From contig NZ_FNQK01000002.1 of the NCBI RefSeq assembly GCF_900107625.1, forward strand, positions 1 to 64,000: DNA of 64,000 bases, given 5' to 3'. Position 1 is the stretch's first letter; each line of letters starts with the position of its first letter. The notes under the pieces were generated by a model. It was not told where the DNA came from. It saw only the letters and a list, made by a program, of their open reading frames with translations, and ran no database searches. Positions 8,351 to 50,975 of the stretch are shown in pieces. The position numbers were made by a program, and so were the translations under genes. Source of the DNA: Bizionia paragorgiae (GTDB taxonomy: Bacteria > Bacteroidota > Bacteroidia > Flavobacteriales > Flavobacteriaceae).

Positions 8351-8380
8351 GACCTTTCGTTATATTGGTTACGAAAGGTC
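8351..8380 (-). terminator. Intrinsic terminator of the xth-OmpA lipoprotein unit
   Basis: A perfect ten-base inverted repeat, GACCTTTCGT / ACGAAAGGTC, with a ten-base loop, is followed on the minus strand by a short T-tract. It lies downstream of the structured element 8400-8485 and upstream of the aldo/keto reductase gene. Confidence 0.85.
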
Positions 8381-8399
8381 TAAATCTGTTTTCTGTATT

Positions 8400-8485
8400 G
8401 CGTTAAGGATGGAGCACCTGTTGGAGCTCTCCCGTTTTTTCACGGGAAGCGACTTGCGAGAGCCTGACCCGACAGGGTAACGCCC
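8400..8485 (-). ncRNA. Dispersed structured 3'-UTR element, copy A
   Basis: In minus-strand sense it starts GGGCGTTACC five bases after the stop of the OmpA lipoprotein gene and ends TCCTTAACGC, followed by a terminator. It shares the blocks GGTCAGGCTCTCG, GTCGCTTCCCG, AGAGCTCCAACA and CTCCATCCTTAACGC with copy B at 50826-50912. Predicted pairings: outer stem GCGTTA/TAACGC; hairpin CCC-TGTC-GGG; stem GCTCTC/GAGAGC; hairpin CCCGT-GAAAAA-ACGGG. In copy B the third pair of the small hairpin is T-A instead of C-G, and the pair after CCG is A-T instead of T-A, so pairing is kept. I recall similar sequences being common in flavobacterial genomes, but cannot confirm identity with any Rfam family (Flavo-1 would be one to test). 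Confidence 0.7.
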
Positions 8486-8490
8486 TAAAC

Positions 8491-9447
8491 TTAAATATCG
8501 TTTAACAATTTAGAAAGTTCGTCTAACTTAGGCGTTAAAATAATCTCTATTCTTCTATTTTTTGATTTACCTTCTACAGTTTCATTACTAGCAACGGGGG
8601 CATACTCACCGCGACCAGCAGCCGTTAAATTATCTGGTTTAATAGCACTATTTTCTTGTAAAATTTGGACTATCGCTGTAGCTCTTTTAGTCGATAAATC
8701 CCAGTTACCACTAATTTGAGAGGACCCTCTATATGGCGCGTTATCGGTATGGCCTTCTATCAAGACGGCAATCTCAGGGTTGTCTGCCAAAACACCTCCT
8801 AATTGTTTAACTGCTTTACGCCCTTCGACACCTACAGACCAGCTTCCTGAATGAAAAAGTAATTTATTTTCCATAGATACATACACCTTACCATTGCGTT
8901 GCTCTACCGTTAAACCTTTACCTTCAAAATCGGTTAAAGCACGAGAAACCGCATCTTTTAGCGCAGTCATTTCAGCTTCCTTAGCCGCAATAACGCTTTC
9001 TAACTCAGCCACACGTTGAGAACGTGCTTCTAGCTGTTGTTTTAAAGTTTCTAAGCGTTGGTTTTCGGCTTGAAGGGCCTGCTCTTTAGCCTCTAATTGT
9101 GCTAACAACTCTCTATTTCTCTTAGAATTAGCTGCAATTGCCGATGAACTATTGGCATCTAAAGCATCGTAAGACGCTTTTAAATTAGTATAACTAGATT
9201 TTGTGGCATCGTAATCACTTTGCAACTGATCGCGTTTAACCACAGCAGCATCATACTGTTTTTGAAGCGCATCTAAGGCGTTAGCCGCTTGATTTTTTGC
9301 TTTTAACAAATTATTATTTTCATCTTTTAAAGACTGATTCTCTTTTTTTAATGCAGCATATTTGTCCTCCAAATCTTTATAGACTTTAGGGGAAACACAC
9401 GCCGTTAAAGAGGCAATGACTAATGATAAAACAAGGATTTTTTTCAT
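8491..9447 (-). CDS. OmpA/MotB-domain lipoprotein with long coiled coil
   Basis: 318 aa. A lipoprotein signal ends at LTAC (Cys17). A long heptad-rich coiled coil follows (about 25-165, rich in Lys, Glu, Gln and Ala), then an OmpA-like peptidoglycan-binding domain (about 190-305) with IAVLIEGHTDN, NWDLSTKRATAIV, GRGEYAP and KNRRIEIILTPKL. The predicted job is an outer-membrane-anchored tether to peptidoglycan, with the coiled coil spanning the periplasm. It follows xth by 18 bp, so the two are probably one transcript. The product is not obviously related in function to exonuclease III. The mRNA ends in the structured element and terminator described separately. Confidence 0.9.
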   Translation of the reverse strand: MKKILVLSLVIASLTACVSPKVYKDLEDKYAALKKENQSLKDENNNLLKAKNQAANALDALQKQYDAAVVKRDQLQSDYDATKSSYTNLKASYDALDANSSSAIAANSKRNRELLAQLEAKEQALQAENQRLETLKQQLEARSQRVAELESVIAAKEAEMTALKDAVSRALTDFEGKGLTVEQRNGKVYVSMENKLLFHSGSWSVGVEGRKAVKQLGGVLADNPEIAVLIEGHTDNAPYRGSSQISGNWDLSTKRATAIVQILQENSAIKPDNLTAAGRGEYAPVASNETVEGKSKNRRIEIILTPKLDELSKLLNDI

Positions 9448-49587: not shown

Positions 49588-50817
49588 ATGTTAGAAAAAA
49601 AAGATACCGCTTTAGAAAAAGCAATTTTAATAGGAGTTATTACCAAAACCCAAGATGAAGAGAAGTCTGAAGAATATTTAGACGAGTTAGAATTCTTGAC
49701 TTACACTGCTGGTGGTGAAGTATTAAAACGCTTCACACAGAAAATGGATATGCCCAACCCTAAAACCTTTATCGGGACAGGAAAAATGGAAACCGTAAGG
49801 CAGTATATCGAAGAAAACAATGTTGGAACCGCTATTTTTGATGATGAGCTTTCGGCGGCACAAGAACGAAATATAAGTAAAATATTAAATTGTAAAGTCC
49901 TAGACCGCACCAATTTAATCTTAGATATTTTTGCACAACGCGCACAAACCAGCTATGCAAGAACGCAAGTAGAATTGGCACAATGCGAATATTTATTACC
50001 ACGATTAAAAGGAATGTGGACTCACCTTGAAAGACAAAAAGGGGGTATTGGAATGCGTGGACCTGGAGAAACAGAAATCGAAACCGATAGACGTATCGTT
50101 AGAGACCGTATTTCCTTGTTAAAAGACAAGATCAAGGTCATCGATAAGCAAATGTCGGTGCAACGCGGTAACCGCGGAAAAATGGTACGTGTAGCACTTG
50201 TTGGTTATACCAACGTTGGAAAATCCACACTGATGAATACCGTTAGTAAAAGTGAGGTCTTTGCCGAGAACAAACTTTTTGCCACCTTAGACACCACCGT
50301 TCGTAAAGTGGTAATACAAAACCTACCCTTTTTATTAACCGATACCGTAGGATTTATTAGAAAGCTACCCACACAATTAGTAGAGAGCTTTAAAAGTACT
50401 TTAGACGAGGTGCGGGAAGCCGATTTATTATTGCACGTTGTAGATATTTCTCATCCTAATTTTGAGGAACACATTGCGTCTGTAAATAAAATTTTAGGGG
50501 AAATTGATAGTAGTGACAAGCCTACAATTATGGTTTTTAATAAAATTGACGCGTATAAAGCCGAACCTTTTGACGCGACCGATCTTATTGCAGAACGCGG
50601 AGAAGAACACTATTCTCTAGCCGAATGGAAGCGCACGTGGATGAATCGTGTAGGAGAAAATAACGCGTTATTTATATCGGCCTTAAACAAAGACAATCTC
50701 GAAGACTTTAAAAAACGTATCTACGACGAGGTCCGCGATATTCATGTCACCCGTTTTCCATACAACCATTTTCTTTATCCCGATTACGATTACGAAAAAT
50801 TGGACGAGGAAGAATAA
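49588..50817 (+). CDS. hflX: GTPase HflX
   Basis: 409 aa. The N-terminal HflX domain (about 20-190) has FIGTGKMETVRQYIEENN, the FDDELSAAQERNIS segment and the Gly-rich GGIGMRGPGETEIETDRR. The GTPase domain has G1 GYTNVGKS (206-213), G3 DTVGFIRKLP and G4 FNKID. HflX binds the 50S ribosome and splits stalled or stress-hibernating 70S ribosomes. A 3'-terminal tail DYDYEKLDEEE is acidic. The structured RNA element begins eight bases after its stop codon, so it is part of the hflX mRNA. Confidence 0.96.
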   Translation: MLEKKDTALEKAILIGVITKTQDEEKSEEYLDELEFLTYTAGGEVLKRFTQKMDMPNPKTFIGTGKMETVRQYIEENNVGTAIFDDELSAAQERNISKILNCKVLDRTNLILDIFAQRAQTSYARTQVELAQCEYLLPRLKGMWTHLERQKGGIGMRGPGETEIETDRRIVRDRISLLKDKIKVIDKQMSVQRGNRGKMVRVALVGYTNVGKSTLMNTVSKSEVFAENKLFATLDTTVRKVVIQNLPFLLTDTVGFIRKLPTQLVESFKSTLDEVREADLLLHVVDISHPNFEEHIASVNKILGEIDSSDKPTIMVFNKIDAYKAEPFDATDLIAERGEEHYSLAEWKRTWMNRVGENNALFISALNKDNLEDFKKRIYDEVRDIHVTRFPYNHFLYPDYDYEKLDEEE

Positions 50818-50825
50818 AAGGATAA

Positions 50826-50912
50826 GGGCGTTACCTTACAGGTCAGGCTCTCGGCAGTCGCTTCCCGAAAACAAAATCGGTAGAGCTCCAACACAGCCTC
50901 CATCCTTAACGC
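50826..50912 (+). ncRNA. Dispersed structured 3'-UTR element, copy B
   Basis: It begins GGGCGTTACC eight bases after the hflX stop and ends TCCTTAACGC, just before a strong terminator. Same blocks and fold as copy A (8400-8485, minus): outer stem GCGTTA/TAACGC, hairpin CCT-TAC-AGG, stem GCTCT/AGAGC, hairpin CCGA-N8-TCGG. Relative to copy A the base pairs in the two hairpins change on both sides (C-G to T-A; T-A to A-T). A short reading frame that overlaps here (50744-51031) is an artefact. Function is unknown: RNA stability, processing to a small RNA, or termination support are possible. Confidence 0.7.
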
Positions 50913-50916
50913 AAAT

Positions 50917-50952
50917 AAAAAACGCGATACTTATTAAAGTATCGCGTTTTTT
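50917..50952. terminator. Bidirectional terminator between hflX and the DUF3078 gene
   Basis: Arms AAAAAACGCGATAC / GTATCGCGTTTTTT around an eight-base loop form a perfect 14-base stem with A and T runs on either side. It serves both convergent transcripts. Confidence 0.96.
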
Positions 50953-50975
50953 ATTAATTGTAGGTCATGAATACA

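Follow-up and report, generated by a model that had tools for sequence, protein, structure and literature searches.

Type 1, an uncatalogued sister form of Flavo-1 that takes its place at shared gene ends in Flavobacteriaceae

Flavo-1 of the Flavobacteria has an uncatalogued sister form, which we named type 1, and each of the two takes the place of the other at shared gene ends. One outer frame, consisting of P1, P2, and P5, carries either of two interiors, that of Flavo-1 or that of type 1, and the elements together represent a family of folded structures behind genes that is widespread in Flavobacteria, lies mostly in one orientation and is inherited in place. Flavo-1 is the Rfam family RF01705 and is listed in Weinberg et al. 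(2010; PMC2864571). A review counts it among the most abundant small RNA families, and the passage concerned gives no function for it (PMC9029176). Only one transcriptome study that mentions Flavo-1 was found, and the relevant passage describes the Flavo-1 matches in F. psychrophilum as lying indistinctly in sense and antisense, many of them untranscribed (PMC9723704). Neither type 1 nor an exchange of interiors was found described in the open-licence literature, a scope outside which the supplementary descriptions of Weinberg et al. lie. A sister form that takes the place of Flavo-1 at the same gene ends offers an independent comparison for the latter, as the constant frame becomes separable from the swappable interior, the folding strand can be named and the element is tied to its upstream gene. 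Thereby, an open annotation is turned into simple questions, namely which strand is free in the cell and what binds there.

Two copies in the window and their fold

The window, which is the whole stretch of 64,000 nucleotides of Bizionia paragorgiae DNA analysed here, contains two type-1 copies, A and B, on opposite strands, both exactly where the original prediction had placed them. The likeness of the two copies is far beyond chance; with copy A as query, blastn retrieves copy B at E 2.1e-18 as well as eleven other genomic copies below 1e-6. Copy A lies 6 nt past the stop codon of an OmpA-like lipoprotein gene and copy B 9 nt past that of hflX, and a terminator-like hairpin with a T run is present downstream of both. 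An Rfam scan of the window at the gathering score gave no match, and around copy A a relaxed threshold gave nothing credible. All open reading frames are simple longest-ORF calls. The features are as follows:

8400-8485, plus strand: copy A, type-1 element; plus is the folding strand, GCGTTAAGG..GGTAACGCCC (covariance model R1, 95.4 bits at 8400-8484; strand from the counts of G-U versus A-C)
8400-8405, plus strand: 5' strand of P1 of copy A, GCGTTA, with its partner TAACGC at 8478-8483; P1 varies in step between copies
8406-8408, plus strand: P2 of copy A, AGG, with its partner CCT at 8463-8465; double changes at two of three pairs, other copies having GTG/CAC or GCG/CGC
8414-8416, plus strand: P3 of copy A, GCA, with its partner TGC at 8455-8457; double changes at all three pairs
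8423-8427, plus strand: internal motif GGAGC of copy A, opposite GCGAC at 8449-8453 (G-C, probable G-A/A-G tandem, GC/GC), conserved in alignment A2
8431-8446, plus strand: apical hairpin of copy A, CCCGT..ACGGG, with double changes
8468-8477, plus strand: side hairpin P5 of copy A, CCCGACAGGG; length and sequence are free, base pairs are kept
8353-8392, minus strand: terminator-like hairpin downstream of copy A (sequence reading and scan match)
8491-9447, minus strand: upstream gene of copy A, OmpA-like lipoprotein (ORF; name from the sequence and the original prediction)
50826-50912, minus strand: copy B, type-1 element; minus is the folding strand (R1, 95.5 bits at 50827-50912)
49588-50817, plus strand: upstream gene of copy B, hflX (ORF)
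50916-50954, plus strand: terminator-like hairpin downstream of copy B (sequence reading and scan match)

The folding strand begins with GCGTTA and is closed by P1 (GCGTTA/TAACGC), followed by the three pairs of P2, which read AGG/CCT, GGG/CCC, GCG/CGC, or GTG/CAC among the copies. The type-1 interior consists of P3, GC(N)/(N)GC, an outer pair of the internal motif that is G-C or U-G according to the alignment comparison, the probable G-A/A-G tandem, GC/GC, and an apical hairpin of free sequence; 3' of the interior, a GA precedes the CC..GG side hairpin of free length. The closing stem, the side hairpin and the apical hairpin had been predicted and are indeed conserved, whereas the stem GCTCT/AGAGC of the same prediction is exact in only 9 of 82 type-1 elements. 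In its place, the comparative pairs give a 3-bp stem next to the closing stem, the GC(N)/(N)GC stem, and GC/GC next to the G-A/A-G tandem.

The fold is supported by covariation. Counting sequences and not events, 95.8% of the cells pair in 58 type-1 sequences (57 distinct), and 216 cells are changed on both sides, where shuffles give 58.5 and slid partners no more than 44; for 49 Flavo-1 sequences, the corresponding numbers are 160, 40.4, and at most 19. The structures of R1 and of R2, the model of the Flavo-1 frame, were drawn from alignments, and since both models carry these structures, the alignments A5 and A6 lean toward them. The folding energies of single sequences do not stand out on either strand (z -1.1 to -2.2, six sequences) and are as such too weak as evidence, so that the structure rests on comparison. 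At the boundaries, GCGTTA is preceded by a conserved T and AACGCC is followed by a conserved C(A/T)AA in 91 elements read on the folding strand; these bases may be part of the element or a target motif.

Distribution and exchange of interiors

The source genome (3.14 Mb, 40 contigs) harbors 19 intact type-1 copies that score 56 to 103 bits with R1, which was built from 13 of them. The further copies that had been expected are therefore present, also beyond this genome, as 79 of 149 sampled Flavobacteriaceae genomes contain type 1 at 1e-8 and 70 of 149 at 1e-10, with 28 or 30 candidates scored per genome and family-wide counts thus being lower bounds. R1 cross-matches Flavo-1 up to about 1e-8 (for example in genomes G126 and G132), and therefore the weakest of the 79 may be cross-matches. 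In a sample of the phylum, type 1 occurs at 1e-6 in 14 of 247 genomes, 13 of them within the family and one, borderline, in the same order, and some of the weakest matches are cross-matches to Flavo-1. R2 matches 103 of 149 family genomes at 1e-5 and, at 1e-6, 30 of the 247 phylum genomes, including other families and classes. The source genome itself contains 20 Flavo-1 copies over the Rfam cut-off and two under it.

The original prediction had suspected Flavo-1 behind copies A and B. Both lie under the Rfam cut-off for that family, but the suspicion was right insofar as type 1 shares the outer frame of Flavo-1 and replaces it at the same loci. In the source genome, both forms have the same outer frame (GCGTTA/TAACGC, P2, GA, and the side hairpin), and they agree in folding strand, in their positions behind genes and in loci of other genera. 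In keeping with this common frame, nine of the eleven other R1 matches in this genome (30 to 44 bits) are Flavo-1 copies; the remaining two are L088, a degenerate type 1, and L061 (C39:99610), a type-1 interior within a different outer frame. The interiors differ, with GAGCNN..GTTGGAGCTCT..AAGCGACNNGC in type 1 and AGCGGCATCCTTT..AAAGATATAGCG in Flavo-1, and the Flavo-1 interior AGCGGCAUCC..GAUAUAGCG is absent from type 1 in alignments A2 and A3. At E 5 or better, Flavo-1 matches none of ten type-1 loci of the source genome; its Rfam gathering score is 42 bits. In 20 type-1 loci from other genera, the sole Flavo-1 match on an element reaches 31.1 bits (L347), under the gathering score, and a 39.3-bit match at L348 lies away from the type-1 element. 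The Rfam model of Flavo-1 starts inside the shared outer frame.

A second outer frame, TAGCCCTGATT..GCAGGA..TAGC, was observed in the source genome with the Flavo-1 interior in L041 (C13:68430) and with the type-1 interior in L061 (C39:99611). As this frame, too, carries either interior, frames and interiors combine freely.

Replacement at the same gene ends was followed in a set of 172 elements (85 type 1, 87 Flavo-1) from 39 genomes, which derives from best-hit lists and is thus non-random, its orthologous members being non-independent. At 27 loci, both neighbours are homologous in different genomes, and 14 of these loci are mixed across genera, type 1 being present in one genome and Flavo-1 in another; the 77 cross-genome pairs comprise 46 of the same and 31 of different type. 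When type 1 and Flavo-1 are compared, the outer arms, obtained from 169 of the 172 elements, are more alike at the same locus than at different loci (0.63 vs. 0.39; 0 of 5000), and so is P2 (5.41 vs. 4.32 of 6; 0 of 5000). With genome-matched and locus-averaged controls, available for 24 of 29 same-locus pairs (13 loci), the values are 0.61 vs. 0.41 for the arms (0 of 3000) and 5.36 vs. 4.50 for P2 (1 of 3000). The same arms would not result from independent re-insertion, and we read this as an inherited outer frame whose interior is apparently replaced in place. What counts against an inherited frame is that the arms of same-locus pairs of two Flavo-1 elements are not raised (0.35 vs. 0.35), whereas their P2 is (5.20 vs. 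4.19; 4 of 5000).

The gene hflX of copy B, behind which alone the empty site was looked at, served as query for such a locus. Out of 80 named hflX loci, four have a model match within about 20 nt behind the gene, namely L153, L154, L155, and L190. Type 1 is found in L153, a contig of a congeneric MAG, and Flavo-1 in L154 and L155 from two Lacinutrix, and both forms share the arms GGCGTTACC, GGTCAGGCT, and ATCCTTAACGC. The fourth, in Flavobacterium filum (L190:7678-7820), is a weak match to the Flavo-1 frame (34.6 bits) in the opposite orientation and possibly an independent arrival. Of the 36 hflX downstream sequences listed, 33 are without an element, many passing directly from the stop codon to a terminator.

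Inheritance, position, and folding strand

For 18 of the 19 intact copies of the source genome, the flanks match element-bearing loci of one or both of the congeners G001 and G002 with roughly 75 to 89% nucleotide identity; only L075 and the degenerate L088 have no matching locus in these two genomes. Behind the orthologues of the OmpA-like lipoprotein gene in G001, G002, and G046, type 1 is present each time. Orthologous elements are on average 89% identical compared to 67% and 72% in the adjacent 40 nt (31 pairs). In their paired columns, 643 cells are unchanged, 16 double changes keep the pair and three break it, and single changes keep the pair in 19 cases and gain or lose it in 25. Hence the elements are, as had been supposed, something other than an inert repeat, and the double changes in the alignments and between orthologues bear out the idea that structure is kept while the sequence drifts.

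Tight placement past stop codons, predicted from the two window copies, holds for many elements: in 84 of 172 elements (45 of 85 type 1, 39 of 87 Flavo-1), the GGCG end has a stop codon at a distance of -1 to 12 nt, compared to eight elements for the other end (2 of 85 and 6 of 87). The GGCG strand, opposite to the folding strand, mostly runs in the direction of the genes. Of the 169 elements that have a neighbour on both sides, 98 are located in co-directional spacers with the GGCG strand oriented like the genes, 28 in such spacers with the reverse orientation, 29 between convergent and 14 between divergent genes; an earlier set of 93 elements gave 54 vs. 14 (p 1.1e-6) and the source genome alone 21 vs. 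4. If only a single neighbour is shared by homology between genomes, the shared gene lies upstream in 33 pairs and downstream in nine (eight in a second listing). Fourteen of the 33 are distant paralogues with 30 to 36% identity, and the remaining ones correspond to about nine good loci compared to about three for the downstream gene. Among the good upstream loci are genes that we take from their sequences to be pyruvate kinase, queD, and hemE. The terminator predicted to follow the element is seen behind both window copies, but it is a minority trait overall: a strict scan finds a terminator-like hairpin within 90 nt downstream in 14 of 172 elements (0.5% in shuffles), a looser one in 28, and a relaxed one within 150 nt in 38.

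Which strand folds can be read from the G-U pairs. In type 1, 52 G-U compared to 4 A-C are counted on the GCGTTA strand, or 33 vs. 4 if one sub-family-specific pair is excluded. The count for Flavo-1 is 16 vs. 3 if an invariant C-A column, which would read G-U on the other strand, is left out. P1 alone is undecided (3 G-U and 2 A-C in type 1). P2 read by fixed anchors without a model, a count independent of the alignment though not of detection, gives 8 to 0 and 1 to 0. The excess of G-U over A-C on the GCGTTA strand indicates that it is this strand, complementary to the upstream mRNA, whose folding is maintained, and it agrees with the strand on which Rfam models Flavo-1. On these counts, selection acts on the antisense strand, the template of the upstream gene.

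Possible modes of action

We lean toward a folded single-stranded DNA, with an antisense RNA as a close second. As our tentative first choice, the elements could be folded single-stranded DNA sites on the template strand. Such an element would work as one folded strand recognised by a putative protein; it would be a once mobile hairpin element in single-stranded form, by now kept at gene ends, and its working principle would be like that of integron attC sites or REP elements while belonging to neither. We lean this way because a RAYT transposase is absent or unassociated, because no promoter signal precedes the folding strand (10 TAnnTTTG in 91 elements, not above the 7.6 in shuffles), because the F. 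psychrophilum transcriptome shows no strand preference for Flavo-1 in the passage mentioned, and because G-U pairs are rarer in the elements (1.6 to 4.1%) than in 23 tRNAs (5.9%), a small benchmark that is suggestive only. Moreover, a branched structure of 85 nt that recurs at dozens of loci must have been copied at some time in the past, which needs mobility, and its conservation in place requires selection after the copying. Several points speak against the single-stranded DNA: no enzyme is identified and RAYT is not associated, vertical stability across genera is unusual for a mobile element of this kind, the tolerance of G-U and the conserved internal loops would suit an RNA equally well, the template strand gives no obvious single-stranded moment, and the 25 single changes that gain or lose a pair do not fit the explanation. 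It is rather unlikely, and the more speculative part of this reading, that Flavo-1 and type 1 would both be non-RNA sites of an undescribed system, placed on the template strand at the 3' ends of chromosomal genes much as attC sites are on cassettes, and that a putative factor would spread copies to further gene ends and swap the interiors at existing sites.

Alternatively, read-through or pervasive antisense transcription might produce an RNA of the GCGTTA strand that folds before the polymerase enters the gene, thereby stopping, processing or buffering antisense transcription at gene ends. This is a real possibility, as the folding strand is the antisense strand, also in Rfam, as placement at gene ends is tight and linked to the upstream gene, and as covariation is strong and includes G-U pairs; the missing promoter signal and the missing strand preference of Flavo-1 transcripts (PMC9723704) argue against it, and dispersal and interior exchange are left unexplained. 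An mRNA-sense 3'-UTR structure or processed small RNA, as originally proposed, in which the GGCG strand protects or processes the mRNA 3' end or acts on terminating ribosomes, would suit the co-directional spacers (98 vs. 28), the 84 elements close to a stop codon and the tie to the upstream gene (33 vs. 9 pairs). However, the mRNA strand of type 1 would have 4 G-U compared to 52 A-C, which favors the opposite strand, and a terminator follows only a minority, so that we consider this role improbable.

Known systems of folded DNA share traits with the preferred single-stranded DNA site. Integron attC sites have the full core form RYYYAAC..GTTRRRY. Like them, type 1 and Flavo-1 lie right behind the gene with the template (bottom) strand folded, attC sites being described as fixed in orientation, recognised as folded bottom strand and conserved in structure more than in sequence (PMC4792948, PMC8876359). 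With GTTRRRY (PMC8876359) and a bottom-strand AAC (PMC4792948) as attC core, the core order of type 1 is reversed, having GTT at the 5' and AAC at the 3' side of the folding strand (GTTA..TAAC). Moreover, no arrays were seen, and the sites lie behind stable chromosomal genes such as hflX. Identity with attC was rejected for the wrong core polarity.

An origin as REP-like element mobilised by a RAYT (TnpA-REP) transposase was tested because a paper describes atypical structures flanking TnpA-REP genes of Bacteroidetes (subclass 2.6, in the part concerned; PMC6006769). REP and BIME sequences are likewise dispersed extragenic hairpins, and many of those in E. coli are described as lying near stop codons (PMC12306157); type 1 and Flavo-1 differ in being larger, branched and conserved in place across species and genera. 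The source genome has no PF01797 match, none of 40 Y1/RAYT-like regions of the family, hand-picked from a list, has an element at E 0.01 or better (best 0.018 with R2 and 0.016 with R1), and Rfam finds no Flavo-1 in 20 of them. The 11 listed genomes with at least 21 R2 matches either have no PF01797 among the matches listed or lie outside its 49 positives. We therefore regard this origin as unsupported and very improbable. An inert repeat or MITE, which the multiple intergenic copies and the degenerate L088 might suggest, is contradicted by conservation in place and pair-preserving changes between orthologues and hardly credible. With regard to carriage by plasmids or phages, blastn with copy A gave no match, and 13 viral contigs with an exact 15-mer contain no element by R1.

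Long type-1 copies occur at contig ends upstream of rRNA operons in the source genome (L070, L071) and in G001 (L118, L119, L121). The end of L070 reaches the start of the 16S rRNA, whose leader is shared by L071 and L119; the gene neighbours of L118 are those of L071 and the neighbours of L121 those of L070. Within one genome, these copies are nearly identical and have different flanks. In two genera, a type-1 element directly adjoins the tmRNA gene (L335:1721-2115, L351:1603-1995), and in the source genome, an S15-Flavobacteria ribosomal protein leader (70.2 bits) is found near a type-1 copy at L018:2791-2855.
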